A DNA stretch of 64,000 nt. Source: an uncultured Verrucomicrobiota bacterium. GTDB lineage: Bacteria > Verrucomicrobiota > Kiritimatiellia > CAIQIC01 > Lenti-01. Below, piece by piece: positions 5,578 to 64,000 of this stretch (positions within the stretch are counted from its first letter, which is position 1; each line of letters opens with the position of its first letter). The stretch spans positions 1 through 64,000 of the forward strand of contig CALMBO010000018.1 in assembly GCA_937860055.1 (NCBI GenBank), read 5' to 3'. A program made the translations under genes and the position numbers. The notes below the pieces were generated by a model. It saw nothing but the letters and a program-made list of their open reading frames with translations. It had not been told where the DNA came from and searched no databases.

Positions 5578-7296
<1,719 letters not shown>

Positions 7297-7312: not shown

Positions 7313-7345
7313 CCCCCACGGCCTTGCGCCGGGGGTGAATCAGGT
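7313..7345. repeat. REP-like hairpin repeat (copy 1)
   Basis: The core GGCCTTGCGCC followed by GGGTGAATCAGG lies between pyrG and the convergent phosphoesterase gene. A second copy with the same core and the same GGGTGAATCAGG tail lies at 45358-45391. The stem here is imperfect. No transposase is nearby. Confidence 0.6.
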
Positions 7346-7365
7346 CCGCCCCACGAGCCCGCGTC

Positions 7366-8799
7366 TCACCACTCCCGCGCCACCAGCGCCTGCCAGTTGC
7401 GCGTGTGGTTGTTGTGCCACGTCTGGCTCTCCGGGTCGAAGAAGCAGAACGCCAGGTGCCACTTCGGCGATTCCGGGACCGTGAACGTCGCCTTCCACCG
7501 CCCCGTCTCCGCCTCGCGCTCCATCGGCATCTCCATCAGCAGGTTGTTGAAATCGTCGCGCCCCAGATGCAGCGTCACGCGCCCGGCGCGGGCCAGCGGC
7601 CCGCCTTCGGCGTCATACCAGATCGTGCAGGCCTCCCCGCGCGCCGGGAAAACCGGTTCCACCCGCACATGCCGGTGCGCCGTGTATTCCGCCCGGTCGA
7701 ACACGGTCCCGTCCGGCGCCTTCGCCTCGATCTGGATCCTTCCCCCCTCCACGCGGAATTGGACGAAATGATACGCGCTCGTGCCGAACGCGATGTTCGG
7801 ATGCCCCTCCGCCACCTGGTAGAGCCACCCCCCGCCTCCTCCGCTGACCAGGTAGGGCACGCCATCGATCGGCTTCGTCCGCTGGTAGGTGTGCGCATGG
7901 CCGCTCAGGACCAGTCCCGCTTCGTACTTCGTGAACAACGGCACCCACCCGTTCCGGATCCCCTCGTCGCCGCCGCGCTCGCCTTCCGAAAAGGGCGGGC
8001 GGTGGAACACCGGGATCACCCAGGCGACCGCCGGATCGTATGCCGCCTTCTGCAGCTCGCGCGCTAGCCAGGCCGTCCGGCCCGGCGCCTCGTATTCCGT
8101 CGAATCCACCAGGATGAACCGGACCGAACCGACGTCGATCGTGTAGTCGTGGCTGTTCGGAAGCTCGATCAGCCGGTGCCAGAACGAATCCGGATTCTCC
8201 GGCTCGTCGTGGTTTCCCGACACCGCCTGGAAAACAAACGACGCCAGCTCTTCCCGCAGGCACTCGAAGAAAAGGTTCCAGCTCGAGATCGCTCCGGCGT
8301 AGTCCCCCGCATAGCGCGGATCCGCCAGATCGCCCGTCGACAGGACGAAATCCGGGTCCGCCTTCACGATCCCCGCCGAAACGCCCTTGGCCGCCCCGGT
8401 GTTGATCCCCCCCTGCAGATCGTTGTGCAGCACAAACGTAAACGGCAGGCCCTTGTCCGCCGGCGCCGTCCAGAAGCGCCCCTGCGCCTCGTAGCCGTCG
8501 GAAGAAGCCACCCGATACTCGTAGTGCGTCCCCGGCTCCAGGTCCCGCAGCGTGAAAATATGGCGGCGGGAAGGCGCCGGCTGGGATTGCTCGCCTCCGT
8601 GCAGCCCCTCGCCCTCCCTGCCTGGGCTGTGGTAGGAAACCTGCGCCGTCCCCTCCTCGTGCCGCTCCCACGCCAGCGTGACGCTCGTGCGCGGATCCTC
8701 CGTCCACGTCGCCATCACGGGCACCTGCCAGGTCCGCGCCAGGACCGGAACACACAGCATCGCCCAGGCAAAAGCCACCGAAATGGTTTTGGTTTTCAT
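7366..8799 (-). CDS. Secreted purple-acid-phosphatase-like metallophosphoesterase
   Basis: This 477-residue protein begins with a signal peptide (MKTKTISVAFAWAMLCVPVLA). Next comes a fibronectin-III-like N-terminal domain as in purple acid phosphatases (LAWERHEEGTAQVSYHS to LEPGTHYEYRV). A metallophosphoesterase core follows, with the motifs STGDLAD, SGNHDE, PVFHRPPF and SGHAHTYQR supplying metal ligands. The first motif reads HNDLQGG rather than the usual GDxG or GDTQ form. The ~100-residue C-terminal part (LHLGRDDFNN, WHLAFCFFDPESQTWHNNHTRNW) resembles a small starch/glycan-binding beta-sandwich of the CBM25 type; that is a weak inference. I chose the ATG at 8799 for the signal peptide; the frame extends to 8859. 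The substrate is unknown. Confidence 0.82.
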   Translation of the reverse strand: MKTKTISVAFAWAMLCVPVLARTWQVPVMATWTEDPRTSVTLAWERHEEGTAQVSYHSPGREGEGLHGGEQSQPAPSRRHIFTLRDLEPGTHYEYRVASSDGYEAQGRFWTAPADKGLPFTFVLHNDLQGGINTGAAKGVSAGIVKADPDFVLSTGDLADPRYAGDYAGAISSWNLFFECLREELASFVFQAVSGNHDEPENPDSFWHRLIELPNSHDYTIDVGSVRFILVDSTEYEAPGRTAWLARELQKAAYDPAVAWVIPVFHRPPFSEGERGGDEGIRNGWVPLFTKYEAGLVLSGHAHTYQRTKPIDGVPYLVSGGGGGWLYQVAEGHPNIAFGTSAYHFVQFRVEGGRIQIEAKAPDGTVFDRAEYTAHRHVRVEPVFPARGEACTIWYDAEGGPLARAGRVTLHLGRDDFNNLLMEMPMEREAETGRWKATFTVPESPKWHLAFCFFDPESQTWHNNHTRNWQALVAREW

Positions 8800-8894
8800 C
8801 CACCCGATCCTACCTCTTCGGGGAAAAAACAGAAAGAACGCTTTCCCCGCGTCTTCCATCCGGCCCCGGGAATGGAAAACCGCCCAGCTATCCG

Positions 8895-10676
8895 CTATTT
8901 GTCAGGGGACAGTTTCTGCCAGACCTTCGGCTCCTTGCGCTCCAGCGCGACCACCCATTGTCCGCCCTCCTGGCGGGACGGCGGCGGATAGATCCGGTAT
9001 TGCTGGGGCCTCTTGTCCGGCTCCATGACCAGCAGGAAGCTCAGGTCCGGCTTGGCGGTGTTCAGCATCAGGAGGTAGTCGGGCGTCACCCCCATCCCCA
9101 TGAAATGGACCGTGGCAATGCCATCGGAGTCGATACGCGTGGCGACCGGTATCGGCAAGGCCACCTTCTGCCCCCCGATGGGGGTGAAGCGGCTTTCCAT
9201 CAGATCGCCGTGGATGACATCCCGCCGGACCATCCGGGTCTTCTCGATCTGGCCGGACTTCTTGATCAGCGCGAAGCCGCTGGACGACCAGATCAGTTCG
9301 CCCATGTCGATGCCGATCAGGTAGGGCGCCACGATCACAAACTGGATGTGCTGGATGGGATCCCCCCCCGGTTCGGCCGGCGTGAGAAGCGTGGCGTCCG
9401 CATCGACGGCAACCAGGCAATATTTCTCGGCAAAATCCCGGAAGACGATTTCCCCGTCCTTCTGGAAAGGATCGTATCCCCCGAGCTTCAGGACCCTGGC
9501 CAGGTAATCGGGGCACTGTTCGGGTATCATCTTCACGGTGATGGTCTGGGCCTCGAACAGGATGTCCTGGACCGTCCCGGTCGAGGCCAAGGCTTCCCAT
9601 CCGGCTTTCAGCTCCAGCGATATCAGCGTCCCCTGCAGATCGTCTGTGACCAGCAGGCGGTGGAGCCGGCCATCCCAATGGACCGATTCGATCGGACCCT
9701 GGTTGTCGTACAGCAGCTGGATCGCGCTGGCCATCGGATCCAGGCGGTAGATCTTCCCGGCCTCCTCGGCCATCAGGACCGAACCGTCGGGCAAAGCGTG
9801 CAGCCCCTCCGGCGCGTGGAATGTCTTCTGCACATGAAAGGTTCGGAGCTTGTGCGACCGCAGGTCCAGGCAGCCGACATCCCCCGAGACTTCGCATGCG
9901 AAATAGGCGTAGGTCCCGTCGGGGGAAAAACACGCGGCGGAATAGCTGGCCATCGCGTCGTTCATCGGCAGCCACCACTCCCCCCCCGCGTCCCGGTACA
10001 GGATCGCCCCCCGGAACAAGCCTTCGCCTCCGCCCCCCCCTACGAAGGTTTCCATGGTCGAACCGGCCATCAGCAATTCTCCCGCGGGCCCGATATCGAT
10101 GGATTCCCAGGCAAAAGGATTCTTTCCGAACGGCACGGAAACCACCTGCCCGCGGATTTTCGAATGCGCTGCCGGCCCCTTGAGATCGAACGAGATCAAT
10201 CGTCCTCCCGGAATATCCTCGACCACATACAGCGTCCCCTTTCCATCCAGCGCCAGCCCCTCCGGCGATCGCAGGCCCAGGACCCGTTTCCGGCCGGCTC
10301 CGTCCCCCTCGTACAGAGGGGTCGAACGGTCGATCAGCACATTCCGGGAGCCATCGGGACCGATGCGGACAATGGCCGGCCCTTCCTCCATCGCCACAAA
10401 GACATCCCCGGATTCCGCATCCCGGGCGATGCCATCCGGGCTTCGAAGGCCTTTCGCAAGCACGGAAACCGACCGGATGACATCCAGCGGCTCCACGTTG
10501 ACCATCATGGCGCTTGGAAGCGGAGCAGAAGGGATGGCTCTCCTTCCCGTGGGAATCACCGCCGTCACATCGGCGCAGGCATTCACCCCCGCGACCATCA
10601 GGACCGCCGCCAGCGGAAAGTGCATCCGGATGCGGCGGGAATTCCGCTTCGCCACAGGATGGAGGGGCTCCTGCAT
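8895..10676 (-). CDS. Exported beta-propeller-like protein of unknown function
   Basis: This is a 593-residue protein. Residues after ~18 (MHFPLAAVLMVAGVNACA) form a signal peptide, so a start at 10625 is possible as well as the ATG at 10676. The N-terminal half has SMP-30/NHL-type propeller motifs: SPDGIARDAESGDVFVAME, SPEGLALDGKGTLYVVED and APEGLHALPDGSVLMAEE recur at regular spacing. The C-terminal half has no recognisable family. Catalytic metal ligands could not be identified, so a sensor or binding role is as likely as an enzyme. It is divergent from the leucine-rich-repeat gene, separated by 175 nt in which I found no convincing promoter. Confidence 0.7.
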   Translation of the reverse strand: MQEPLHPVAKRNSRRIRMHFPLAAVLMVAGVNACADVTAVIPTGRRAIPSAPLPSAMMVNVEPLDVIRSVSVLAKGLRSPDGIARDAESGDVFVAMEEGPAIVRIGPDGSRNVLIDRSTPLYEGDGAGRKRVLGLRSPEGLALDGKGTLYVVEDIPGGRLISFDLKGPAAHSKIRGQVVSVPFGKNPFAWESIDIGPAGELLMAGSTMETFVGGGGGEGLFRGAILYRDAGGEWWLPMNDAMASYSAACFSPDGTYAYFACEVSGDVGCLDLRSHKLRTFHVQKTFHAPEGLHALPDGSVLMAEEAGKIYRLDPMASAIQLLYDNQGPIESVHWDGRLHRLLVTDDLQGTLISLELKAGWEALASTGTVQDILFEAQTITVKMIPEQCPDYLARVLKLGGYDPFQKDGEIVFRDFAEKYCLVAVDADATLLTPAEPGGDPIQHIQFVIVAPYLIGIDMGELIWSSSGFALIKKSGQIEKTRMVRRDVIHGDLMESRFTPIGGQKVALPIPVATRIDSDGIATVHFMGMGVTPDYLLMLNTAKPDLSFLLVMEPDKRPQQYRIYPPPSRQEGGQWVVALERKEPKVWQKLSPDK

Positions 10677-10851
10677 GTGATTTCATCTTACTTCCCTCTC
10701 CCGGCAGGTGTCAAACCGCCACCCGCATCTGGATGCCTCGCCAGGACGCTTCCCGCTGAATTTCCCCATGGACATGCTTGCGATGGAAGGCCCGTTGGGG
10801 CAACTTATGGCTATGAGCTCACACCTTCACGTGGAGCGGAACCCGATCGTC

Positions 10852-13800
10852 ATGGGGCGGTGGCTGGCGGTGCTGTTCCTATGGGCCCTTCCGCTTGCTT
10901 CCCTGGGCGGCGATTTTACCTATACAACCAATTCCCCCGCTACAAACACGGTCACCATCACCGGCCACACGGATCCCCGTGGCGGGCTGGCCATTCCTTC
11001 CAATATCGCCGGCCGGACCGTCACCGCCATTGGAAACAACGCCTTCCGGGGAGCCACCGGCCTTTCCGGCCTTTCGATCCCGGCCAGCGTCGCCACCGTC
11101 GGCAGTTCCGCGTTCTACGGGTGTGCTGGATTGACGAACCTCTCCATGGAAAATGGCGTCACCACGATCGGCAGCTATGCGTTCTACGGGTGCAGCGGCC
11201 TCGCCGCCGTGGCCATTCCCGCCAGCGTCACCTCGATCCAGGAGCGCGCATTCGATGGCTGTACCAGCCTGGCCGCCATCTCCGTCTCGGAGACCAATGC
11301 CGCCTATTCCAGCCTCGACGGGGTCCTGTTCAACAAGGCGCAAACCTCGATCCTCCAGCACCCCGGCGGCAAGGAAGGCGCCTATTCGATTCCCGATGGC
11401 GTCGCTTCGATTGGCGCCTATGCGTTCTATGCCCGCACCGGCCTGACAGACGTGTCCATTCCAGGCAGCGTCACCTCGATTGTGAGCTATGCGTTCCAGG
11501 GCTGCACCGCCCTGACGGACATCGTTCTCCCCGACGGCCTCGCCACCATCGGGACCTACGCGTTCTATGGTTGCTCCAACCTGCGGAACATGGATCTCCC
11601 CGCCAGCGTCACCTCGATCGGAAGCAGCGCCTTTCAAGGCTGCACCGCCCTGACGGACATCGTTCTCCCCGACGGCCTCGCCGCGATCGGCAGTTACGCG
11701 TTCTACGGCTGTTCCCGTCTCGCAAGCATCGCCATCCCCGCCAGCGTCTCCTCGATCCAGGACCGCGCGTTCGATGGCTGCCCCGCTTTGGCCGCCATCA
11801 CGGTCTCGGAAACCAATGCCTCCTATTCCAGCCTCGACGGGGTCCTGTTCAACAAGGCGAAAACCTCGCTCCTCCAGCATCCCGGCGGCAAGGAAGGAGC
11901 CTATTCGATTCCCGATGGCGTCGCCACGATTGGCAGCTATGCGTTCTATGCCCGCACCGGCCTGACCCGCGTCGACATTCCCGCCAGCGTCACCTCCATC
12001 GGAACCTACGCTTTCCAAGGATGCACCGGCCTCACCGGCATCGATCTCCCCGATGGCCTCGCCTCGATTGGAAGCGGTGCCTTCATCGGCTGTTCCAATC
12101 TGCGCACCATCTCCCTCCCCGGCGGCATCACCGCGATCGGAACCGGCGCGTTCCAAGGTTGCACTGGCCTGGCAGGCGTGGACCTCCCTCCCAATGCCAC
12201 CTCGATTGGAAGCAGTGCCTTCCAAGGCTGCACCGCCCTGATGGATGTCGTTTTGCCCGACGGCCTCGTCACCATCGGAACCTATGCGTTCTACGGATGT
12301 TCCCGCCTCACGAACATCGCCATCCCCGCCAGCGTCTCCTCGATCCAGGACCGTGCGTTCGATGGCTGCCCCGCTTTGGCCGCCATCTCCGTCTCGGAAA
12401 CCAATGCCGTCTATTCCAGCCTTGACGGGGTCCTGTTCAACAAGGCGCAAACCACTCTCCTCCAGCACCCCGGAGGCAGGGAAGGCGACTGTTCGATTCC
12501 CGACGGCGTCACCTCGATTGGCGCCTTTGCGTTCTGCGCCCGCACCGGCCTGACCCGCGTCGGCATCCCCGCCGGCGTCATCTCCATCGGAACCTACGCT
12601 TTCCAGGGGTGCTCCAGCCTGACGAACATCAACCTCCCCGATTCCCTCGCCACGATCGGCAACTATGCCTTCCAGAGCTGTTCCGCCCTGGGAACCGTGG
12701 AAATCCCCGGCACTGTCGTTTCGATCGGAACCGGCGCCTTCCAAGGCTGTTCCGGCCTGGCAAGCCTCGCTCTCGGCACCGGCGTCGCTTCGATCGGAAG
12801 CTATGCATTCTATGGCTGTACCGCTCTCGCCGGCGTGGACATCCCGGCCAGTGTCACCACGATCTCGGATCGCGCGTTCGATGGATGCTCCAGCCTGGCC
12901 TCCATCTCCGTCGCGGCCGGCAATGCCGCCTATTCCAGCCTCGACGGCGTCCTGTTCAACAAGGCCCAGACCTCGCTCCTCCAGCACCCCGGCGGCAAGG
13001 AAGGCGCCTACGCCATTCCCGATGGCGTCACCACGATCGGCAGCTATGCGTTCCTCGCCCGCACCGGCCTGACGGGCGTTACCCTCCCCGGCAGTCTGGC
13101 AACGATCGGCATCAGCGCATTCCAGGGATGCACCAGCCTGGCGAGCATCGAAATCCCCGATGGCGTCGCCTCCATCGGCAGCAGCGCGTTCCAGGGCTGC
13201 ACCGCCCTGCGGAATGCCGTGATCGGCAGCGGTGTCATCTCGATCGGCGGCTATGCGTTCTATGGCTGCATCCGCCTCGCGGAAGTCGTCATCCCCGAGG
13301 GCGTCACCACGATCGGCAGCTATGCGTTCCATGGCTGTTCCAGTCTCACCAACGCGGTCATCCCCGCCAGCGTCGCCCTGATCCAGGAGCGCGCGTTCGA
13401 CGGCTGCCCCGGCCTGGCGGCTTTTTCCGTCGCGGCGGATAATGCCGTTTATTCCAGTCTGGACGGCGTCCTGTTCAACAAGGCCCAGACTTCACTCATC
13501 CAATATCCCGGCGGCCGGGAAGGCGCCTATTCGATCCCCGATGGCGTCACTTCGATCGGGAACTTCGCCTTCTACGCGCGGGCCGGCCTGACCGGCATCG
13601 ACATCCCCTCCAGCGTCGTTTCCATCGGAAACTATGCCTTTCAAAGCTGCACCGGCCTGACCAGCGTGGCCGTGCCCGACAGCACAGCCGCCATCGGGAT
13701 CTACGCCTTCAGCGGATGTTCCGGCCTCACGAATATCGCCATCGGAACCCATGTCGCCTCGATTGGAACCTATGCGTTCTTCGGATGCACCCGTCTCGCC

Positions 13801-15927
13801 AGCGTGGACATCCCGGACTCCGTCGCCACGATTCAGGACCGCGCGTTCGATGGTTGCACCAGCCTGACCTCCATCTCCGTCGCGGCCGGTAATGCCGCCT
13901 ATTCCAGCCTCGACGGGGTCCTGTTCAACAAGGCCCAGACCTCGCTGATCCAATTCCCCGCCGGCCTCGGAGGAACCTATGCCGTCCCGTCGGGCACCGT
14001 CTCGATCGCAACCTATGCCTTCTACGGATGCACCAACCTGACGGATGTCGTCATCCCCGGAGGCGTCACTTCGATCGGCGGCTATGCGTTCCAAGGATGC
14101 ACCGGCCTGGCCGGCGTCAGCCTTCCCGCCACCCTGGCCTCGATCGGATCCGGCGCGTTTCTGGGCTGTACCCGCCTGGCCGGCATTCAGATCCCCGATG
14201 CCGTCGCCGCCATCGGGGCCGGCGCCTTCCAAGGCTGCACCAGCTTGACGAACGCCACCATCGGCACCAATGTCACCTCCATCGGGGGCAGCGCGTTCTT
14301 CGGATGTTCCAGCCTGACGGGCGTGGAAATCCCGGAAAGCGTCACTTCGATCCAGGATCGCGCCTTCGATGGCTGCACCGGTCTGGCTTCCATCTCCGTC
14401 GCGGCGGACAACACCGCCTACTCCAGCCTGGGTGGCGTCCTGTTCAACAAGGCGCAAACCTCGCTCCTCCAGTTTCCCGCCGGCCTCGGCGGGACCTATG
14501 CCGTTCCCTCCAGCGTCACCTCGATCGGCAGCTTCGCGTTCAATGGCCGCACCAATCTGACTGGCGTAACCCTCCCGGATGGCCTCGTCGCGGTCGGGAG
14601 CTACGCGTTCTACGCCTGCACCGGCCTGGCCAGCATCAACCTTCCTTCAAGCCTCACCTCCATCGGGAACTATGCCTTCTGCGGATGCGCCGCCCTTTCC
14701 GGCGTGACCATCCCCGAGGGCGTCGTCTCGATCGGAACCGGCGCGTTCCAGGGTTGCACCGGCTTGGCGGACATCGCCATCCCCGGCACCGTCGCCGCGA
14801 TCGGAGGCTATGCCTTCTATGGTTGCTCCGGCCTGACGAATGCCATCCTCGCCAACGGCACCACCTCCATCGGCGGCTATGCGTTCTGCGGGTGCTCCTC
14901 CCTCCCCGGCGTGGAAATCCCCGGCAGCGTCACGTCGATCCAGGAGGGCGCGTTCGACGCCTGCGCCAGCCTGGCTTCCATCTCCGTCGCGGAAGGCAAT
15001 GCCGCCTTTTCCAGCCTCGATGGCGTCCTGTTCAACAAACTGCGGACCCTGCTTCTTCAATATCCCGGCGGCAAGGAAGGGGCCTATGCCATCCCCCTCG
15101 GCGTCGCCTCGCTCGGAAACTACGCATTCCACTCCTGCAACCGCCTGCCTGCTTTGGCCATTCCCGACACCGTGGCCGCCATCGGGGCGGGAACGTTCAA
15201 CAACTGCACCGGATTGACCCATGTCGCGATCGGCGAAGGGGTGGCGAGGATCGGAACAAGGGCATTTGAAGGCTGCATCAACATTCCCTCGCTCGTGCTT
15301 CCCGCCAGCGTCGTCTATGTGGGCGGAGGCGCATTCGACGCTTTTACCGGCAACATCTACTTCAAGGGGAATGCGCCGGCTTGCGACCCCAACGCCCCCG
15401 ATTGGGCTTCGGCATTCTACTGCCTCGGCACGGCCGGCTGGGAGATCGGCCTCCCGGAAATCCGCGTCTGGACAAGCGTGGCGACCTTCGACGCGGGGGC
15501 GGGAACCCCCTCGTATGCGAGCTGGACTTGCAACGTGGGCAATGCCTACGGCACCTTGCCGACGGCAGACCTGACGGATTTCGCGTTCGCCGGCTGGTGG
15601 ACCGCGGCGGATGCCACGGGCACAAGGGTGTTCACCTCCACGCTTGTGCCCTATGCGACGGCCCCGCACACGCTCCATGCCCGGTGGACCGAAACCCCGG
15701 CCATCGGCGGGGAAAGCGAAATCCTCTTCACGCCCGGCGCCCTGTCATTCGGAATCCCGGCGGATTACTCGGGATGCGCGGTCGAATACGCCACCGCCGT
15801 GACGAATGGCGCGTGGAATTTCGCCCCCCTGCCGGCCGGGGAATACGCCGTGTCGAACGGAACCGTGACCCTCTACTATTCGCCGGCCCGCCCCAAGGCC
15901 ATCTACCGGGCGAAGTTCAGCCCGTAG
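10852..15927 (+). CDS. Giant BspA-type leucine-rich-repeat surface protein
   Basis: This is a 1691-residue protein. I chose the ATG at 10852 because it opens a clean signal peptide (MGRWLAVLFLWALPLASLGG); the frame extends back to 10708. Nearly all of it consists of 23-residue LRR_5 (Treponema pallidum/BspA) repeats of the form xxIGxYAFxGCxxLTxVxIPxxV. Eight slightly longer units contain the phrase SSLDGVLFNK, typical of LRR_5 proteins. Near the C-terminus a Listeria-Bacteroides (InlB B-type) repeat is visible (VATFDAGAGT to DFAFAGWW), followed by a short beta-rich end. No LPXTG, PEP-CTERM or membrane anchor was seen. In other bacteria such proteins mediate adhesion or surface coating; the role here is inferred only. 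Confidence 0.9.
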   Translation: MGRWLAVLFLWALPLASLGGDFTYTTNSPATNTVTITGHTDPRGGLAIPSNIAGRTVTAIGNNAFRGATGLSGLSIPASVATVGSSAFYGCAGLTNLSMENGVTTIGSYAFYGCSGLAAVAIPASVTSIQERAFDGCTSLAAISVSETNAAYSSLDGVLFNKAQTSILQHPGGKEGAYSIPDGVASIGAYAFYARTGLTDVSIPGSVTSIVSYAFQGCTALTDIVLPDGLATIGTYAFYGCSNLRNMDLPASVTSIGSSAFQGCTALTDIVLPDGLAAIGSYAFYGCSRLASIAIPASVSSIQDRAFDGCPALAAITVSETNASYSSLDGVLFNKAKTSLLQHPGGKEGAYSIPDGVATIGSYAFYARTGLTRVDIPASVTSIGTYAFQGCTGLTGIDLPDGLASIGSGAFIGCSNLRTISLPGGITAIGTGAFQGCTGLAGVDLPPNATSIGSSAFQGCTALMDVVLPDGLVTIGTYAFYGCSRLTNIAIPASVSSIQDRAFDGCPALAAISVSETNAVYSSLDGVLFNKAQTTLLQHPGGREGDCSIPDGVTSIGAFAFCARTGLTRVGIPAGVISIGTYAFQGCSSLTNINLPDSLATIGNYAFQSCSALGTVEIPGTVVSIGTGAFQGCSGLASLALGTGVASIGSYAFYGCTALAGVDIPASVTTISDRAFDGCSSLASISVAAGNAAYSSLDGVLFNKAQTSLLQHPGGKEGAYAIPDGVTTIGSYAFLARTGLTGVTLPGSLATIGISAFQGCTSLASIEIPDGVASIGSSAFQGCTALRNAVIGSGVISIGGYAFYGCIRLAEVVIPEGVTTIGSYAFHGCSSLTNAVIPASVALIQERAFDGCPGLAAFSVAADNAVYSSLDGVLFNKAQTSLIQYPGGREGAYSIPDGVTSIGNFAFYARAGLTGIDIPSSVVSIGNYAFQSCTGLTSVAVPDSTAAIGIYAFSGCSGLTNIAIGTHVASIGTYAFFGCTRLASVDIPDSVATIQDRAFDGCTSLTSISVAAGNAAYSSLDGVLFNKAQTSLIQFPAGLGGTYAVPSGTVSIATYAFYGCTNLTDVVIPGGVTSIGGYAFQGCTGLAGVSLPATLASIGSGAFLGCTRLAGIQIPDAVAAIGAGAFQGCTSLTNATIGTNVTSIGGSAFFGCSSLTGVEIPESVTSIQDRAFDGCTGLASISVAADNTAYSSLGGVLFNKAQTSLLQFPAGLGGTYAVPSSVTSIGSFAFNGRTNLTGVTLPDGLVAVGSYAFYACTGLASINLPSSLTSIGNYAFCGCAALSGVTIPEGVVSIGTGAFQGCTGLADIAIPGTVAAIGGYAFYGCSGLTNAILANGTTSIGGYAFCGCSSLPGVEIPGSVTSIQEGAFDACASLASISVAEGNAAFSSLDGVLFNKLRTLLLQYPGGKEGAYAIPLGVASLGNYAFHSCNRLPALAIPDTVAAIGAGTFNNCTGLTHVAIGEGVARIGTRAFEGCINIPSLVLPASVVYVGGGAFDAFTGNIYFKGNAPACDPNAPDWASAFYCLGTAGWEIGLPEIRVWTSVATFDAGAGTPSYASWTCNVGNAYGTLPTADLTDFAFAGWWTAADATGTRVFTSTLVPYATAPHTLHARWTETPAIGGESEILFTPGALSFGIPADYSGCAVEYATAVTNGAWNFAPLPAGEYAVSNGTVTLYYSPARPKAIYRAKFSP
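11311..15013 (+). repeat. Nested LRR super-repeats quantised in 69-nt steps
   Basis: The SSLDGVLFNK codons recur with starts at 11311, 11830, 12418, 12937, 13456, 13906, 14425 and 15013. Successive distances are 519, 588, 519, 519, 450, 519 and 588 nt. These differ only by multiples of 69 nt, exactly one 23-codon leucine-rich repeat. Confidence 0.9.
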
Positions 15928-15949
15928 GAAACGATCCCGGCCAAACATG

Positions 15950-15979
15950 AAAAAACCGCAAGCCCAGGCCGGCTTGCGG
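15950..15979 (-). terminator. Rho-independent terminator for tRNA-Arg
   Basis: On the minus strand a perfect 9-bp stem (CCGCAAGCC/GGCTTGCGG, plus positions 15956-15964 and 15971-15979) with a 6-nt loop is followed by six T (complement of 15950-15955). It sits just downstream of the tRNA, and the A-rich side also faces the convergent leucine-rich-repeat gene. Confidence 0.8.
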
Positions 15980-15984
15980 GAAAA

Positions 15985-16061
15985 TGGCGTACCTGACAGG
16001 AGTCGAACCTGTAACCTTCTGATCCGTAGTCAGATGCTCTATCCAATTGAGCTACAGGTAC
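15985..16061 (-). tRNA. tRNA-Arg (anticodon ACG)
   Basis: This is a 77-nt cloverleaf on the minus strand. A 7-bp acceptor stem (GTACCTG/CAGGTAC), the D-arm TAGCTCAATTGGATAGAGCA, a 5-bp anticodon stem TCTGA/TCAGA around the loop CTACGGA (anticodon ACG), a T-arm with GGTTCGACTCC, discriminator G and an encoded CCA are all visible. It reads CGN arginine codons after A34-to-inosine editing. Confidence 0.97.
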
Positions 16062-16077
16062 ACCGAATAGGCTGTGT

Positions 16078-16106
16078 GTTCTACACCACCGCCCCGCTTT
16101 TGGCAA
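16078..16106 (-). promoter_or_regulatory. Promoter of tRNA-Arg
   Basis: On the minus strand TTGCCA (complement of 16101-16106), a 17-nt spacer and TAGAAC (complement of 16078-16083) lie 16 nt upstream of the tRNA 5' end, between xseB and the tRNA. Confidence 0.45.
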
Positions 16107-16115
16107 CCCCCTCTT

Positions 16116-16361
16116 TCAATTTTTCTCGCCTTCGAAGGGTTCCGTGCCGACAGAGCCGTCGGATTTCTTCACCAGCATCTCGATCTTCTTCTCGACTTCG
16201 TTGAGCTTAGAAGAGCACAGCTTGACCAGTTTCTGGCCCTCCTCGAACGCCGCCACCATCTTTTCCAGGCCGAGCTCGCCGCTCTCCATTTCCGCCGCGA
16301 TCTCTTCCAGCCGCGCCAGCGCCTTCTCGAAGCTCTGGACCTTTTCCGCCTTCTCCGCCAT
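16116..16361 (-). CDS. xseB: Exodeoxyribonuclease VII small subunit
   Basis: This 81-residue protein forms the helical small subunit that coats the XseA arms of ExoVII, a single-strand exonuclease. The family signature is clear: SFEKALARLEEIAAEMESGELGLEK, then a second helix FEEGQKLVKLC. I chose the ATG at 16361 because a strong GGGAGGAGG ribosome-binding site immediately precedes it. The first 155 nt overlap the 3' end of xseA in another frame. The C-terminus is a charged tail. Confidence 0.93.
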   Translation of the reverse strand: MAEKAEKVQSFEKALARLEEIAAEMESGELGLEKMVAAFEEGQKLVKLCSSKLNEVEKKIEMLVKKSDGSVGTEPFEGEKN

Positions 16362-17676
16362 CTCGTCCTCCTCCCGCCGAATCCACGGTGGAAGCCACCG
16401 TGCCGTCGGCAAATTCCGTTTCCAAATGCATGCCCGGCGCCGCCTCGGCCGCCGAGCGCAGGATCTTCCCGCCCCGCAGGCGGGTCAGGCTGTAGCCGCG
16501 CGCAAGCACCCCCTTGGGGTTCAGCATCCGCAGCTGCGCCTCGGCATGCTTCAGCGCGTTCCGGTCCTCCCCGATGCGCCCCCGCGCCGCCAGCTCCATG
16601 CGGCGCGCGGCCGCCTCCGTCCGCTGCCGCACCAGCTGCGGAAGGCCCGCCAAGGCCTTCTGCAGCCGCACCGCCAGCAAATCCACGCCCTGCTGCAGCC
16701 GGTGCACCTCCTGCAGGGGATCGCGCAGCCCCGGCGCGCGCGACGCCCGGTCGAGCCGGTTCCGCCAGTCCAGCACCACCGCCCGCGCGCCCAGCCCCAG
16801 CCGCCGCCGCAGGTCCGCGACGCGCCGTTCCAGCTCGTCCTTCCCCTTCACGACCAGCTCCGCCGCCGCGCTCGGCGTCGGCGCCCGCACGTCCGCCGCG
16901 AAGTCGCTCAGCGTCCAGTCGATCTCGTGCCCCACCGCCGAAATCACCGGGATCTTCGAGCGCACAATGGCCCGGACCACGACCTCCTCGTTGAAGCTCC
17001 ACAGGTCCTCGAGGCTGCCCCCGCCCCGCCCCACGATCAGGACATCGATCCCCCCGCGCCTGTTCAAGAGGTCGATGGCCTCGGCGATCTCGTCCGAGGC
17101 GCCCGCCCCCTGCACGCGCACCGGCGCCAGCACCACATGCAGGTTCGCAAACCGCCGGTCCAGCACCTGGAGGATGTCGCGGATCGCCGCGCCGGTCGGC
17201 GATGTCACCAGCCCGACATGCTGCGGCAGCGCCGGCAGCGGCCGCTTGCGCTCCGGGGCGAACAGTCCCTCCTCCGCCAGCCGCTTCTTCAGCGCCTCCA
17301 GCCGCATCATCAGCTCGCCTTCGCCCGCCGGCTCGATCTTCCGCAGCAGGATCTGGTAGTCGCCGCCGGCCTCGTAGACCGTGATCTGCCCGTAGCCGCG
17401 CACCAGCAGCCCGTCCTTGAGCGGGATCGCCACGTCGGCCAGCGCGCTGCGGAACATCACCGCCCGCAGCTGGCTCGTCGCGTCCTTCAGCGTGAAATAC
17501 GCATGGCCCGACGCCGGTTTCCGGAAATTCGAGATCTCCCCCTCCACCCACACACTCCCGAACGCGCCCTCGAGCGTGCCCTTGATGCGGCGCGTCAGCT
17601 CCGAGATCTTCCAGACCTGGCGCCGGCCCCCGCCGCGCCCTTCCGATTCCCGGCCATCTGGAAACAGATCGGTCAT
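16207..17676 (-). CDS. xseA: Exodeoxyribonuclease VII large subunit
   Basis: This is the catalytic subunit of ExoVII; the open frame is 489 residues. The N-terminal OB-fold (tRNA_anti-like) domain reads VWVEGEISNFRKPASGHAYFTLKD. The catalytic region contains VGLVTSPTGAAIRDI, GRGGGSLEDLW and SAVGHEIDWTLSDFAADVRAPTPSAAAE, all characteristic. Conserved homology ends near ADGTVASTVD, about 75 codons before the stop. The remaining Gly/Arg/Glu-rich tail is read in the second frame through two thirds of xseB. The tail is either a genuine extension or a product of a missing stop. It starts 8 nt after the LolA-like gene and is followed by xseB in the same operon. Confidence 0.92.
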   Translation of the reverse strand: MTDLFPDGRESEGRGGGRRQVWKISELTRRIKGTLEGAFGSVWVEGEISNFRKPASGHAYFTLKDATSQLRAVMFRSALADVAIPLKDGLLVRGYGQITVYEAGGDYQILLRKIEPAGEGELMMRLEALKKRLAEEGLFAPERKRPLPALPQHVGLVTSPTGAAIRDILQVLDRRFANLHVVLAPVRVQGAGASDEIAEAIDLLNRRGGIDVLIVGRGGGSLEDLWSFNEEVVVRAIVRSKIPVISAVGHEIDWTLSDFAADVRAPTPSAAAELVVKGKDELERRVADLRRRLGLGARAVVLDWRNRLDRASRAPGLRDPLQEVHRLQQGVDLLAVRLQKALAGLPQLVRQRTEAAARRMELAARGRIGEDRNALKHAEAQLRMLNPKGVLARGYSLTRLRGGKILRSAAEAAPGMHLETEFADGTVASTVDSAGGGRDGGEGGKGPELREGAGAAGRDRGGNGERRARPGKDGGGVRGGPETGQAVLF

Positions 17677-58507: not shown

Positions 58508-58836
58508 GGATCTATCCGTTTCTGATCAACGGCCCCCAGTATCCAACATCCTCCCCACCCGATGCAAGGGAGAAGCGGCATGGCAAGATCCACCCCCAAA
58601 ACAATCGCAACTAGTTTATCTACAAAGAAATATGCCTTCCACGCTTCCTCGTCTTGCCTTCCGGCCCCTCGAGTGGCATGGTTCCCTCCATGCAAATCCC
58701 GTTTTTATTATTGCTTCATTTTTCGTTGAAACTCTGCATGTGCTAATTGCATTCTGCTAATTTTTGCTTGCACAAAAAAAAATCTTATGTAATGTCGCGG
58801 CACAGTTGAAATACGCACAGGAAAGCGGGAGAGAAT
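58508..58836. other. AT-richer intergenic region before the integrase, with possible attachment-site elements
   Basis: This 329-nt gene-free region becomes AT-rich after about 58690. It holds an inverted repeat GCATGG (58676-58681)/CCATGC (58688-58693) with a 6-nt centre and a direct repeat TGCTAATT (58741-58748 and 58755-58762). A possible promoter follows, TTGCTT (58764-58769)-16-TATGTA (58786-58791), and GCGGGAGAG before the integrase ATG. Inverted arms around a 6-8 nt centre are the layout of tyrosine-recombinase core sites, so this may contain the left attachment site. Confidence 0.4.
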
Positions 58837-60210
58837 ATGGAACAGGCCGTGGTGGCAAAACGCAAAAAGGAAAAGCATGGGCTTGGCAGAATCTATGCCG
58901 TCAACGGCCGTTGGTATCTGCGCTTCATGTGCCGTGGGCAATTCCACCACCTCCCGCTCAAGGCGGCCGATGGAACCCCATGCACGAACAAACGCGCCGC
59001 CCAGGCGCTAAGGAAGAGCTATATCGACGCGTTCAAGGCCGATGCCACTCTCGCCGAACGAAAGATGGAGTCCGCTCGTCAGGCGGGCGAGAAAGGAATC
59101 GCGGACGCGAAGAGATCGAAGGCCGGCCTCCTCTACGTTTCGCAGGGCTTCGACCTGTTCAGGGAAAACCGGGCCGGCGCTGGACGGCTGCCCGGCGCGG
59201 CGACGATGCGGCAATATGAATCCATCTTCTCCGCCTTCCAAGATTGGCAGCGCAACCGCAAGGTGCCCGTGACCTATCTCGCCGCCGTCACGGATGACGT
59301 GGCGGATGATTATGCCGAGCACCTGAACCGCGTCCGAAGGCTTTCCGCCCGCACATACAACGGCCACATTTCCATCCTGCGGTTCATCTGGAAGAAAATT
59401 CGCAAGCCGGCGGGTCTCGGGGAGCGCCCGAACCCATGGGAGGACATCGAGCTGCGGAAGACCGACGAAGGCGTGCGCATTGGCTTCACGGTGGAAGAGG
59501 CCCGGGCCATCATCGCCCAATCGGTGTCCCCGGCCTACCGGCAGGCCCCGGGGTCCCTGGGAGTTTTGGCGAAAAACGGCGAGTTGCCGACGTTCTTTGC
59601 CATCATGGCCGGTACGGGATTCCGCATGGGGGACGCCTGCCTCGCCAAATGGGAAAACGTTAAGCTCGAAGACAATCGCATCGAAATCCGGGCGCGAAAG
59701 ACTAACCGCACGCACGCGATTTACCTCCACCCGGTGCTCCGGCGTTGGCTGGAGGCCCTCCCCGGTCCGAGGGAAGGCTACATCCTGCCGACTCTGGCGG
59801 AGCTCTACGGGAAATCCAGCTATCATGTCTGCGTGGTCGCCAAGCGCATCTTCACGGATGCGGGCATTGTGACCAACACGGAGGCCGACGAGTCGAATGT
59901 CCGCCGGCGGGTTGTCCATGGCTGCCATAGCTGGCGTCATTCCTTCGCCACCTGGGCCACTGAACGCCACGTCAGCACAACGATCGTTGCTGCCGCCCTT
60001 GGGCACAAATCGGCCGCAGGCCCGAGAATGACCCTCGTATATTCACACTTGTCCGCTGACGCGGGCCGGCCGGCGGTGGAGGCCATCCCCTTGGATGAAA
60101 TTCTGGATGGCCTGTCGCCCACGTTGAAGCCAAAGGAAATCGCCGCATGGGTGCAGCGCCATGAAAAGCGAAAGGAGGACGCGACACACACCGCCCCGAA
60201 CCGTTTTTGA
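58837..60210 (+). CDS. Tyrosine recombinase (integrase) of a mobile element
   Basis: The 457-residue enzyme has an N-terminal DNA-binding arm rich in Lys (VAKRKKEKHGLGRIYAVNGRWYLRF), a core-binding SAM-like domain, and the catalytic domain with the full set of residues: Arg263 in GTGFRMGDA, His364 and Arg367 in CHSWRHSF, His390 in LGHKS and the nucleophile Tyr402 in LVYSHLS. It looks intact. GCGGGAGAG precedes the ATG. It opens a run of co-directional small genes of unknown function, marking the left part of an integrated element. Confidence 0.92.
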   Translation: MEQAVVAKRKKEKHGLGRIYAVNGRWYLRFMCRGQFHHLPLKAADGTPCTNKRAAQALRKSYIDAFKADATLAERKMESARQAGEKGIADAKRSKAGLLYVSQGFDLFRENRAGAGRLPGAATMRQYESIFSAFQDWQRNRKVPVTYLAAVTDDVADDYAEHLNRVRRLSARTYNGHISILRFIWKKIRKPAGLGERPNPWEDIELRKTDEGVRIGFTVEEARAIIAQSVSPAYRQAPGSLGVLAKNGELPTFFAIMAGTGFRMGDACLAKWENVKLEDNRIEIRARKTNRTHAIYLHPVLRRWLEALPGPREGYILPTLAELYGKSSYHVCVVAKRIFTDAGIVTNTEADESNVRRRVVHGCHSWRHSFATWATERHVSTTIVAAALGHKSAAGPRMTLVYSHLSADAGRPAVEAIPLDEILDGLSPTLKPKEIAAWVQRHEKRKEDATHTAPNRF

Positions 60211-60215
60211 ACCCT

Positions 60216-60242
60216 CGTTCACAATAAATGAACGCACGTTCA
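60216..60242 (+). promoter_or_regulatory. Three GTTCA/TGAAC half-sites: possible LexA-like operator
   Basis: CGTTCA (60216-60221), TGAACG (60229-60234) and CGTTCA (60237-60242) lie just after the integrase stop and 52 nt before the next gene. The last two form TGAACG-CA-CGTTCA, that is GAAC-N4-GTTC, the form of the Gram-positive SOS box. The two CGTTCA copies are 21 nt apart, two helical turns. Regulation of the following genes by LexA or an element repressor is inference. Confidence 0.4.
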
Positions 60243-60293
60243 TCCAGCACAAGGAACACGACGGTGCCGCAAACAACACGAAAGGACGATGCG

Positions 60294-61103
60294 ATGAGAA
60301 CAAGAAAGACGACGATGCTGGAAAAGATGATTCCCGAACCACTGACCAGGGGCCTCTTCACGCTGGCCAACGCCCGCGCGTATGTTGACGCGCTGGCGCT
60401 GGTGGTCGAGGAAGCGCAGGGGCGGGTTGCCGAATGCACCCGGGCGGCCCACAAGGCCGCAGAGGCGAAGGACTGGAGCAAGGTGCTGGGTCACGTACTC
60501 GAAGGCATGAAATGGCGGCTGACGGCCCGGGATGCGGCCGATGGCGGACGGTACATGGCCGGCCTCGCCGCGAAAGAGACGGCCCGCCTGCGAAAATCCA
60601 AGACTGTGCGCCGTGCCATGGGGAGCGGCCACGGCCCAGCCGAAAGGACGGCGCGGGCCATCCTGCGCCGGGCCGATGCCATGGATGCGGAAAGCAAGGC
60701 GCAGGCGCGGGAGATCGGAGAGAACGCCGAACAGCCGGACGGTCTCGGGATCCTCGAAGGCATGGCCAGGATGAACCTTGGCTTGCCGATCCCGAAGAGG
60801 TGCCGCGTCGCCGGCCCCCTCCCCTCGCAACGCGCCAGCGGGCAGCGTGGAGCCAAGGCCGAGCCCGAACGGGTGCGGCAGGAAATGTGGTTCACCCCTG
60901 CCGCCTGGGCGGAGCTGCAAGTGGTGGCCGCCGCCGAAAAGAAGGGCGACGTGGGCGAGGTGCTCTCGCGGGCGGTGCGGGAAGAATGCCGCACCTTCCG
61001 AAACCGGGTGCGCGCCGGATGCGTCATGGGCACGGCCAAGGCTGCCAAGCGGGCGCAGCAGGCTTTGGCGGAGATCGACGCCGGGAAGGTGGCGACGGCA
61101 TGA
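60294..61103 (+). CDS. Mobile-element protein of unknown function
   Basis: The 269-residue protein is basic, Ala/Arg-rich and helical, with no signal peptide. I chose the ATG at 60294 because AAAGGA lies seven bases upstream; the frame extends to 60228, where the operator-like repeats are. A C-terminal segment (ERVRQEMWFTPAAWAELQVVAAAEKKGDVGEVLSRAVREE) resembles ribbon-helix-helix-like or antitoxin-like helices only vaguely. No family is recognised. Its stop overlaps the next gene (ATGA). Confidence 0.6.
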   Translation: MRTRKTTMLEKMIPEPLTRGLFTLANARAYVDALALVVEEAQGRVAECTRAAHKAAEAKDWSKVLGHVLEGMKWRLTARDAADGGRYMAGLAAKETARLRKSKTVRRAMGSGHGPAERTARAILRRADAMDAESKAQAREIGENAEQPDGLGILEGMARMNLGLPIPKRCRVAGPLPSQRASGQRGAKAEPERVRQEMWFTPAAWAELQVVAAAEKKGDVGEVLSRAVREECRTFRNRVRAGCVMGTAKAAKRAQQALAEIDAGKVATA

Positions 61104-61297
61104 ACCCGCAAGAGCAATATCGGCTGAAGGCCGCAGCGGCCGGGAGGGCCATCGCCCAGCTTGTCCTGCGGCGAAGGCGCGAGACGGCGGCGGAGAGGCC
61201 CGAACGGGCCAGACCGCCAAAAGCGGGGTTCCAGGATTCCAGCACAACGGCAGCGGGCACCGTGAAGCCCGAGGGGTTCCAGACGATAAGCGGTTAA
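61100..61297 (+). CDS. Short mobile-element protein of unknown function
   Basis: This 65-residue, Arg/Ala-rich protein is coupled to the previous gene by an ATGA overlap. It begins with a helical stretch (YRLKAAAAGRAIAQLVLRRRR) and ends in a polar Ser/Thr/Gly tail. Nothing more is recognisable. The coupling is the main support for it being real. Confidence 0.45.
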   Translation: MNPQEQYRLKAAAAGRAIAQLVLRRRRETAAERPERARPPKAGFQDSSTTAAGTVKPEGFQTISG

Positions 61298-61358
61298 TGA
61301 CGACACGGGGCGGCGCGGATCGGCCGCACGCCCCCTGCCCTACGAAAGAGAGCGGAGC

Positions 61359-62045
61359 ATGAGCGCACAGAAGATGACGGCGAAACAGCGGGAGAAGTGG
61401 GCGGCCCTGATGGCGGCGGACACGGCGCGGCGGAACCGCATCGAAGGCCCAAAGAGAGTCGCCGTGGACTTTCTGCTGAGAGCCGAGTCGATCTCCGCGA
61501 AAAACTGGGGGAAATATGCCGAAACGTTGCTGGTTTGTGAAAAGGAAATCAGCGCCCAGCTTCACCGTGGGGAGATATTGAAGGGCTGCACCCAGGCGGA
61601 CTTCGAGGCGGCATGGGGAAATCCCATGGACATGGCGGACATTGCCGCAGGTGGCCAGCGCGCCCTTGCCGAGGCGAGGGATTATCTCTTCATCATGGCG
61701 CAACTATTCCGCGCCTACGCAAAGGCCGTGCGGAAGGACCCGCGTGGAACAGTGGGCCTTGAAACTGCGAAAAAGGCGCTGGCGGCGACGCTGGCCGATG
61801 ACCGGAAGCGCCGGAACAAGGCGTCGAAAAAACCAGGCCGCAGGGCGCGCGCGAGAAGGTCAGAATGGGAAACCGTGTTTCGCTTCATCGATGCGAACGC
61901 GGATCGTGTCGGCAGCGTTAGGGGGGCGGCCGAAGCGGCAAGGGCAAAATACTCCATGCCTGAATCTGTCGACTATATTCGCAACAAATATGGGCAAGAA
62001 AAGAAAAACACCATCATTCGTGCACGGAATATGACAATTAATTGA
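61359..62045 (+). CDS. Mobile-element protein of unknown function
   Basis: The 228-residue protein is highly charged. The N-terminal ~130 residues are helical (MTAKQREKWAALMAADTARRNRIEG). A Lys/Arg-rich linker (RKRRNKASKKPGRRARARR) is followed by a C-terminal ~50-residue segment that could be a DNA-binding helix-turn-helix (IDANADRVGSVRGAAEAARAKYSMPES). No family was recognised. GAGCGGAGC before the ATG may serve as the ribosome-binding site. A terminator follows. Confidence 0.6.
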   Translation: MSAQKMTAKQREKWAALMAADTARRNRIEGPKRVAVDFLLRAESISAKNWGKYAETLLVCEKEISAQLHRGEILKGCTQADFEAAWGNPMDMADIAAGGQRALAEARDYLFIMAQLFRAYAKAVRKDPRGTVGLETAKKALAATLADDRKRRNKASKKPGRRARARRSEWETVFRFIDANADRVGSVRGAAEAARAKYSMPESVDYIRNKYGQEKKNTIIRARNMTIN

Positions 62046-62075
62046 TGCAAAATTGACCCGCTGAAAATCTCTTCT

Positions 62076-62112
62076 GGCCCCGCCCGCATTGTATGTGCTG
62101 ACGGGGCCTTTT
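62076..62112 (+). terminator. Terminator-like hairpin after the 228-residue gene
   Basis: GGCCCCG (62076-62082) pairs with CGGGGCC (62102-62108), followed by TTTT (62109-62112). The 19-nt loop is long. The hairpin lies 30 nt after the stop at 62045 and separates the first three element genes from the next group. Confidence 0.5.
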
Positions 62113-62239
62113 GCTGCACAAATTGGCACACATTTTTTATGCACAAGAAGTCCCGTTCACTTGGGACCAGATGCAAGCAATCAGTGCCAACGCAGACCAC
62201 AACGGCGAGCGGCGCGGATTGGGCATCGTGGAGACGAGC

Positions 62240-62491
62240 ATGGGAACGAAGAAAGAAACTGGCGACTCCCCCGCTCTCGGCGGGATCGTCAAACTGGCGG
62301 ACGTGGCGAAGCGCCTGGGCGGATGCAGCCGCACGACCGTCAAGAGGTACATCGCGGCCGGACTGCTGGAAGGCTTCAAGCTTCCCGGTGGCACACGAAC
62401 CATCGGCGTCTATGCGCCGTCGGTCGAGAAGTTCCTGCATGACGGGCTCCAATTCGCGCGGGCCGCGCGGCAGGCGCGGGCGGCGGGTTGA
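62240..62491 (+). CDS. Small helix-turn-helix protein, excisionase/MerR-like
   Basis: The 83-residue protein reads GGIVKLADVAKRLGGCSRTTVKRYIAAGLLEGFKLPGGTRTIGVYAPSVEKFL, the pattern of excisionase-type or MerR-like winged helix-turn-helix domains: helix-turn-helix, then a wing with GGTR. In a mobile element this suits a recombination directionality factor or a small regulator. I chose the ATG at 62240; the frame extends back to 62111. A weak promoter (TTGCTG 62111-62116, about 17-18 nt, a T-rich -10) lies upstream. Confidence 0.7.
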   Translation: MGTKKETGDSPALGGIVKLADVAKRLGGCSRTTVKRYIAAGLLEGFKLPGGTRTIGVYAPSVEKFLHDGLQFARAARQARAAG

Positions 62492-62545
62492 TCGGGCGGC
62501 AATGATCGGAAACCACACCTAGCCTATACCTACAAGGAGACAACC

Positions 62546-62758
62546 ATGGACGAATATTTCGAACAACGTCGCCAGCAGCATGCAGCTGCGCGCCAGCTCT
62601 ACGCCCAAGGCCGCGGCACCCTTCGGCAAACCCCGAACCTCACCGCAAAGGTGACGCTCAACATTCTCTGCAAGAAAGAGCACAGGCAGCCGACGCCCGA
62701 GGAAATCGAGTTATGCCAGGACGTGGAAGTGGTGCCGCGTCCCGGGGGGGCGCGATGA
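62546..62758 (+). CDS. Small mobile-element protein with QPTP module
   Basis: The 70-residue protein has a strong AAGGAG ribosome-binding site before the ATG at 62546. Its second half (NLTAKVTLNILCKKE then HRQPTPEEIELCQDV) aligns with the first part of the following protein, so the two share a small module. The function is unknown. The stop overlaps the next gene by 4 nt (ATGA). Confidence 0.6.
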   Translation: MDEYFEQRRQQHAAARQLYAQGRGTLRQTPNLTAKVTLNILCKKEHRQPTPEEIELCQDVEVVPRPGGAR

Positions 62759-63291
62759 ACTCGGTCCCCCTTGACGTTGCCCGCGCCGCGCAGGCGGGTC
62801 ACCTGGCCGCGTTAAAAAATCTGACGCGGACTATCCAGCTTCACGCCACCTGTTCAGCGGAGTTTCGCCAGCCAACGCCTGACGAGGTCGCCAGTACCTA
62901 CGATTTCCTGCCGATGAACCATGCTGATGCACGCCATCGTGCCGCCGCCGCAGACCAGGCTAGAGTCATTGCGGAGGCAGATCGGCGCGCTGCCGGCATC
63001 CCTGCCGATTCGCCGCCGCAACCGAAGCGCGACCCGTTCACCTTCACGGAACTGGTCCGCTCCATAGAGGACGCGGCGGCGCGCCTGAACGAGGGGCACC
63101 AGGCGGATGAACATGGGCTTGTCTCGCTCTTTTCGCCGAACACGGCGAAAGTGGCCATCCTCGCTGCGAACCTCGCCGGCGGAACGACAGCTCCGACGGA
63201 CGCGGAGATCCTCAAGGTCCTGGACGTGCGGCCCCACCTGCGAGTCGCCGAGCCCGGCGACCACCCGTTGCCTAAAGGCGGCCATCCGTGA
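62755..63291 (+). CDS. Mobile-element protein with QPTP module
   Basis: The protein has 178 residues. Residues ~20-50 (NLTRTIQLHATCSAE then FRQPTPDEVASTYDF) are similar to the upstream 70-residue protein. The rest is Ala/Asp-rich and helical (HADARHRAAAADQARVIAEAD), with a moderately hydrophobic region (TAKVAILAANLAGGT). No family was recognised. It is coupled on both sides by ATGA/GTGA overlaps. Confidence 0.55.
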   Translation: MNSVPLDVARAAQAGHLAALKNLTRTIQLHATCSAEFRQPTPDEVASTYDFLPMNHADARHRAAAADQARVIAEADRRAAGIPADSPPQPKRDPFTFTELVRSIEDAAARLNEGHQADEHGLVSLFSPNTAKVAILAANLAGGTTAPTDAEILKVLDVRPHLRVAEPGDHPLPKGGHP

Positions 63292-63677
63292 ACTATCCGC
63301 ATGAAATTCTCGCCGCTGCCGAAACACGAATGGCTCCCGTTCGCGAGCTGCTGGCCGCCCTGTCACCCGCAGAGGCCCAGCGCATCCGCGATGACGTTTG
63401 CGAGGCGCTGTTGTCCGGCAATTCGATTGAGGCTTCCGCCCACGTGAATCGCGTTCGCCACACGGCCGCCGTGCGGGCAGAACAGGCCGCCGCAGCCAAG
63501 GCCAAGGCCGAAGCCGACGCCATTGAGGCTGTGCGTTCCGAACTGCTGCGCACGCCGCACTTTGTCCGCCTCACCCACGCGCTGGCCTCCGAATTGACGA
63601 AGGCCGGCACCACGCCCCGGATGCTGGAGGAACTGGCGGACGAACTGCCGCGCCTCTGCGGGAGGTTGCGGCCGTGA
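63288..63677 (+). CDS. Mobile-element helical protein of unknown function
   Basis: The 129-residue protein is almost entirely alpha-helical and Ala-rich, with a probable coiled coil (AAVRAEQAAAAKAKAEADAIEAVRSELL). The start is a GTG overlapping the previous stop (GTGA), and the stop overlaps the next start in the same way. No family was recognised. Confidence 0.55.
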   Translation: MNYPHEILAAAETRMAPVRELLAALSPAEAQRIRDDVCEALLSGNSIEASAHVNRVRHTAAVRAEQAAAAKAKAEADAIEAVRSELLRTPHFVRLTHALASELTKAGTTPRMLEELADELPRLCGRLRP

Positions 63678-64000
63678 ACCCCGCCAAGGATTTTTCGTTC
63701 CCCGGTTTTGACCGGCTCAAGGATCTCCCGCACCTGGACGGCCTCTCTGACAAGGAGGCGGCCCACTCTCTGTCCGGTGTACAACTGGATCTCATGTTCA
63801 AAGGCTCTGCCTTCGAGGATGCCGCGCGCCGTGCGCGTGAACGCAACGACCGCGTTCTACTCGCCAACCTGATTGGCAAGTGGCGCGCCGTGTTTCCCCG
63901 ATTGGTTGCCGGTGCGCGGGCGCGGCAGGCGTTGCTCGACTCTCCGGCCGGCTGCTTGCTGCTGGAGCGCGTCGTGGAACTGTTCTTGCATCCGGCCTGC
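63674..64000 (+). CDS. Mobile-element protein, 3' end outside the window
   Basis: A GTG at 63674 overlaps the preceding stop and opens a frame without stop to the window edge (109 codons). It begins VNPAKDFSFPGFDRLKDLP and continues as a helical, Arg/Leu-rich sequence (RRARERNDRVLLANLIGKWRAVFPRLVAGARARQALLD). Too little is present to name it. Confidence 0.55.
   Translation, partial: MNPAKDFSFPGFDRLKDLPHLDGLSDKEAAHSLSGVQLDLMFKGSAFEDAARRARERNDRVLLANLIGKWRAVFPRLVAGARARQALLDSPAGCLLLERVVELFLHPAC

Follow-up and report, generated by a model that had tools for sequence, protein, structure and literature searches.

The window, i.e., the whole stretch of 64,000 nucleotides analysed here, corresponds to positions 1-64000 of contig CALMBO010000018.1 (C18) of an uncultured Kiritimatiellia bacterium (Verrucomicrobiota), and its last part was found to belong to an integrative element inserted in the dapF gene. 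The source genome, of 3.05 Mb, is split into 29 contigs. C18 extends to 66825, and the right end of the element was located on a second contig, C23. With roughly even confidence, the element is read as a self-replicating, phage-derived, phage-satellite-like integrative element. It is considered phage-derived because it carries a helicase, an ERCC4 nuclease and a tape-measure-like protein, and the feature set of satellites, i.e., integrase, regulator and own replication protein, is present. The first-pass annotation, made from the window, had suggested an undescribed satellite or cargo-bearing element. This is likely, since the element derives from a phage and the 14.1 kb assembled (gap excluded) showed no recognisable terminase, portal or capsid gene, but it is unproven because the middle of the element is unassembled.

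The integrative nature of the region, as had been proposed, is strongly supported by the two junctions, a 12-bp core repeated at both, and a reconstruction of the empty site. The left attachment site (attL, core AAATCCCGTTTT) lies at 58694..58705 on the + strand and is also the native 5' stub of dapF. The identical 12 bp at C23 5999-6010 form the right attachment site (attR), i.e., the junction on the dapF side. The element was thereby placed in codons 2-6 of dapF. The former start codon is the ATG at 58690, and the new start is a GTG provided by the right end of the element, with the frame kept and eight codons between this GTG and the upstream in-frame stop on C23. After the insertion, dapF still matches DAP_epimerase (E=8e-46). 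Relatives have trkA and dapF side by side in divergent orientation. Here, trkA is found on C18, to the left of the element, and dapF on C23. The flanks joined at the core gave one continuous alignment of 343-346 bp (76-81%) to the dapF region of all four relatives tested (G014, G011, G010 and G013). The comparison did not include G009 and G012, two more members of the genus, as dapF was not recognised beside trkA in the stretches examined. By these junction sequences, the ends are defined and the element is a real integrative element. In the part of PMC8409611 that treats such insertions, IMEVchUSA3 in dusA and the integrative conjugative element (ICE) SXT in prfC likewise give their target gene a new 5' end. 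Here the target is dapF, and unlike in those elements no conjugation genes were seen in the assembled part. No report of dapF as an integrase attachment site was found in the literature, and the insertion offers an exact, testable attachment site.

The sequence past 64 kb, which the first-pass annotation had asked for, was read to the end of C18 and continued with the right end on C23. A DUF5906-type helicase was predicted at C18 64110-65498 (DUF5906, E=2e-7; phrog_1156, E=4e-6). Its Walker A motif, i.e., G178, P179, G183, K184 and S185, is invariant in all eight sequences aligned. The helicase profile weakly matched two phage-type primase entries in the PDB (E=0.008), along with unrelated ATPases, and tblastn of the helicase in phage and plasmid records gave no match. 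Two more open reading frames (ORFs) beyond the window, g11 (65576-66391) and g12 (66420-66806), follow on C18. The first gene on C23 is cut at its 5' end; its product, of 532 aa or more, contains a weakly sigma-region-4-like segment and was matched in one of the 345 genomes of the class, its own. Next come a helix-turn-helix (HTH)-like protein of 122 aa and a fragment related to it (c23b/c23c). Two small ORFs are joined by 4-base overlaps to a tape-measure-like protein of 505 aa. This gene is followed by a 353-bp intergenic stretch, the ERCC4 nuclease (PF02732, E=2e-10; phrog_3490, E=5e-19), a 119-aa ORF and attR. The last ORF is ribbon-helix-helix-like by eye and gave no profile match.

The tape-measure-like protein was matched in five of the 345 class genomes, its own included. 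The others were G016 and G052 (loci L130 and L131), and G188 and G283 (E 1e-4 and 9e-4). The matches to L131 and L130 are the basis for reading it as a tape measure. The counterpart in L131 matches phrog_2335, a tail length tape measure family (E=1.5e-5), with a head maturation protease encoded on that same stretch. The L130 counterpart is placed beside a weakly portal-like protein.

At the left end, the tyrosine integrase (58837..60210, + strand) is an intact ORF of 457 aa followed by eight co-directional ORFs, as the first reading had it. It matched Phage_integrase PF00589 (E=2.2e-13) and phrog_1 (E=2.2e-32) and showed 42% identity to the integrase of a related element on contig C20. R263, H364, R367, H390 and Y402, which we take to be the catalytic set of integrases, are invariant in the alignment of these two proteins. 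The eight ORFs are all on the + strand, and the start positions of g2 to g9 were set in this analysis. They begin with g2 (60294..61103), g3 (61100..61297), a small ORF, and g4 (61359..62045), for which, as for g2, no family match was found. The HTH protein (62240..62491) is excisionase/AlpA-like (HTH_17, E=1.1e-4, below the Pfam curated cut-off; phrog_66 excisionase, E=5.8e-5). It is followed by g6 (62546..62758, 70 aa), g7 (62755..63291, 178 aa), g8 (63288..63677, 129 aa) and g9 (63674..64063, of which 63674..64000 is in the window, 129 aa). The product of g6 is paralogous to the N-terminal part of g7 (phmmer, E=7e-7). The translational coupling by ATGA or GTGA overlaps is real, but where five genes had been described as joined, four joints touching six genes were counted, i.e., ATGA at g2/g3 and g6/g7 and GTGA at g7/g8 and g8/g9.

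It had also been claimed that only the HTH protein can be recognised among the eight ORFs, and the searches in Pfam, PHROGs and PADLOC agree. Apart from this protein, g2 to g9 gave nothing better than E=0.0085 in Pfam and PHROGs, and the PHROG profiles gave nothing convincing for any of the other seven ORFs. The PADLOC scan of ten C18 proteins reached E=0.033 at best, the middle of the element being unassembled. Relatives in a known phage or plasmid family would have spoken against an undescribed element; tblastn of g7 gave no match in phages (50,697 records) or plasmids (72,556 records). The structure-based search that had been proposed was made with g2. Its single-sequence model is long-helical (mean predicted local distance difference test score, pLDDT, 63), and Foldseek against the PDB returned mostly helical bundles, none at E<=0.001. 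The model of g7 was too poor for a search (mean pLDDT 44), and PDB sequence searches with the g7 and g9 profiles gave nothing meaningful. G+C-rich inverted repeats were observed before g4 (window 61298-61358) and between g9 and the helicase (L007 2063-2109). These repeats are kept in the C20 element and may be control signals.

The related element on C20 (L008, 1-7050) lies on the opposite strand in the same genome and keeps g2, g6, g7, g8 and g9. The identity between copies is 64% for g2 over the shared part, 82% for g7, 81% for g8 and 77% for g9, and g3 lies within a block of 83% DNA identity common to both elements. The ratio of nonsynonymous to synonymous substitution (dN/dS, NG86) between the C18 and C20 copies is 0.41 for g2, 0.22 for g6, 0.15 for g7, 0.19 for g8 and 0.16 for g9. 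The values of 0.15-0.22 indicate that g6 to g9 are real genes. The HTH proteins are related as well (E=3e-16). The C20 element is a mosaic: an unrelated ORF takes the place of g4, one extra ORF differs, and in place of the C18 helicase it has a D5-like primase as replication gene. Its contig tip has 59 bp (98%) in common with an intact tRNA-Tyr gene at C27:24716-24774. This match suggests mobility, and the tip sequences suggest that occupied and empty tRNA-Tyr sites coexist in the sample. At the far tip of C20, the D5-like primase runs into a VWA domain; no second copy of this fusion occurs in the genome, and it is perhaps an assembly fault.

A third element of the same genus (G010, L133; L016) carries a g6-like gene (E=1e-9) beside AAA_25/DnaB-N and DUF5763-like proteins. 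Class-wide, g7 was matched in seven of the 345 genomes at E<=0.01, its own included, and both strong copies are in its own genome. One candidate relative of g7, L014, was rejected as its locus looks chromosomal. Viral contigs searched for g7, g8, g9, the integrases and the 532-aa C23 protein gave no confirmed relative, and neither did the genome_contigs search for g7.

The helicase belongs to a wider family. It was matched in 14 of the 345 class genomes, its own included, and in 41 genome_contigs loci. Identity is 38-52% at 39 of these loci, and the remaining two have 35% and 32%. By their titles, almost all of the 41 loci are from Verrucomicrobia or related groups (Akkermansia, Pedosphaera, Opitutaceae, Lentisphaerae and Pontiella), one is from Nitrosomonadales and one from Terriglobia. 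Many of them end early at contig ends. A co-directional upstream integrase was found in 23/41 loci (16/21 where 8 kb or more precede the helicase), and an integrase anywhere in 26/41. A primase-like protein (PRI) precedes the helicase in 23/41 loci, and an HTH protein lies between integrase and helicase in 10/41. All small genes were sought in the 41 loci; none of g2 to g9 was found, and g11 gave one weak match.

Some of these loci carry defence genes. L138, on a contig of an Akkermansia metagenome-assembled genome (MAG; 6389-17059), was observed to encode an integrase, an HTH protein, a primase-like protein and a helicase of the same family, then BrxA, BrxB and BrxC. By its gene content, it is a bacteriophage exclusion (BREX)-bearing integrative element. 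L167 has a C5-methylase and a type II enzyme. L119 has an IIG-like enzyme as well as an AbiL-like pair, whose members match AAA_21 and RloB in Pfam. L141 is a prophage, since terminase and portal genes lie behind its helicase. The IMG/VR contigs L029-L032 carry the same helicase family, and L032 also has an ERCC4 nuclease. With defence cargo in L138, L167 and L119 and with L141 a prophage, one replication core thus serves both prophages and cargo elements.

For the satellite-like reading, the following mechanism is proposed. The integrase and the HTH protein would excise the element, and the helicase would copy the excised circle. The element would spread in the particles of a helper phage, which is proposed because no head or packaging genes are in the assembled part. 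The g6-g9 genes, just before the helicase where relatives have PRI, may act as replication or control factors, and the tape-measure-like protein may alter the tail of the helper.

Several points weigh against this reading. The assembly is interrupted between C18:66825 and C23:1 by a gap of undefined length that could hold head or packaging genes; no contig tip shares an overlap of 12 or more bases with the tip of C18 or C23. Genes for capsid size, small terminase or packaging were not recognised in the assembled part. The tape-measure-like protein itself has no PHROG or Pfam match, and its best phmmer match is 44.2 bits with a bias of 42.6. Because this composition bias is high, it is moderately probable, from sequence comparison, that the 505-aa protein is a tape measure. 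The placement of g6-g9 instead of a primase is a guess from position, as the Pfam scan of PRI proteins was weak, i.e., a sub-threshold PriCT_1 match in one of three and nothing in the other two. Compared with the head-gene region on contig C29 at E<=0.01, similarity among the element proteins was limited to the integrases and the C20 primase.

This C29 region was considered as a helper. With phrog_2, the genome gave a terminase match on C29 (E=1e-47) and another, weak one on C27 (E=6e-5). Such matches are common, as 11 of 14 control genomes also gave one. The C29 element (L201-L203, about 523-560 kb) was observed to contain a terminase, a portal, a head protease, a major head protein and a D5 primase, with an integrase further off, and no tail family was found among the ten proteins scanned. 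It may represent a prophage or a satellite able to form capsids. With this head-gene element in the same genome, a source of heads is at hand, and its gene content makes it a suggested candidate for the helper.

The main rival explanation is a decayed or incompletely assembled prophage. If the element were a complete or nearly complete temperate phage, the head and tail genes would lie in its unassembled middle. The helicase family does occur in true phages (L141 and the IMG/VR contigs), and the tape-measure-like and ERCC4 genes are phage genes, the nuclease being in L032 too. However, just the ERCC4 nuclease and a small ORF stand between the tape-measure-like gene and attR, whereas prophage L131 has further ORFs there. 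The C23 genes before the tape-measure-like gene are HTH-like or unknown, not head genes, and no contig tip of the bin is phage-structural, judged by eye. A complete phage is held to be rather unlikely. If it were a prophage in decay or a composite of two mobile elements, and immobile now, this would account for the isolated tape-measure-like gene, the many orphan ORFs and the duplicated HTH fragment c23b/c23c. Decay fits poorly with the intact integrase and attachment cores, the purifying selection on g6-g9, the kept translational joints and the related element at a different site of the same genome, and this explanation is rated unlikely.

An integrative mobilizable element (IME) or plasmid-like element moved by conjugation was also considered. 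The g2 homologue on C20 has a very weak match to Mobilization_B (E=0.11), and the IME and SXT described in that part of PMC8409611 likewise insert at the 5' end of a gene and supply its start. But no relaxase or conjugation family was above threshold in the Pfam scans of the assembled element proteins, g7 has no relative in the plasmid records, and the helicase and ERCC4 nuclease are phage-type. Movement by conjugation is accordingly rated very improbable.

Most of what is known about satellites comes from a few cultured groups, and in the literature found on Verrucomicrobiota or Akkermansia, phage satellites are barely mentioned. In SaPIbov5, the satellite protein Ccm is reportedly homologous to a capsid protein of the helper. 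The element resembles phage-inducible chromosomal islands (PICIs) and PICI-like elements (PLEs) in its left-end integrase, HTH regulator, own replication protein and phage-derived parts, and in its size of about 14 kb assembled with no head genes seen. It differs from them in having no recognised packaging or capsid-remodelling gene, in the phylum of its host and in the g6-g9 operon without a named relative. Satellite classes are treated in sections of the review PMC11389934. As described in part of PMC12987554, Vibrio PLEs encode a tape measure of their own, with which they build chimeric tails, so that a satellite tape measure is on record, and putative tmp genes occur in capsid-forming PICIs (cf-PICIs). 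Satellite and prophage defences also act on tail assembly, according to portions of PMC11364771 and PMC10884400.

P4-like satellites share with the element the integrase, the AlpA-like HTH protein and a primase-family helicase, and the relatives of the element carry defence cargo. However, the helicase scores 12.8 bits (E=0.039) with TIGR01613, the model of the P4 family, which has a cut-off of 108.7 bits, no Psu, Sid or Delta was seen, and the relatives have a separate primase-like gene where g6-g9 stand here. A further comparison is with the Verrucomicrobiota helicase loci L138, L158 (Pontiella), L167 and L141, with a helicase of 43-50% identity and a co-directional upstream integrase. They differ in that PRI comes before the helicase in the family, at the count given above, and g2-g9 are absent there. 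What is new is the genes and the host group; the design is of a known kind.

Since the helicase-integrase family reaches Akkermansia MAGs with BREX and restriction genes, it may be an important carrier of defence genes in Verrucomicrobiota. A bolder proposal, quite improbable as a whole, is a new satellite lineage of Kiritimatiellia with its own tape measure, two small partner genes linked to it by 4-base overlaps like tail-assembly chaperones, and g6-g9 replacing PRI, which would build chimeric tails like those of Vibrio PLEs, perhaps on C29 heads. If true, a satellite with its own tape measure would represent tail remodelling independent of Vibrio PLEs and cf-PICIs.

The intergenic stretch after the tape-measure-like gene (C23:4559-4911, L083) was searched in Rfam and phage sequences, and no Rfam family and no phage match were found. 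At E<=0.01, it gave matches in 41 of the 345 class genomes, its own included; these were short, with E above 6e-5 outside the query, and were taken as chance. Its 353 bp have a predicted folding energy of -195.8 kcal/mol, with z=-4.75 for the coding strand and z=-3.5 for the opposite one. As this predicted fold is strong on both strands, the stretch may be a structured RNA or a DNA signal.

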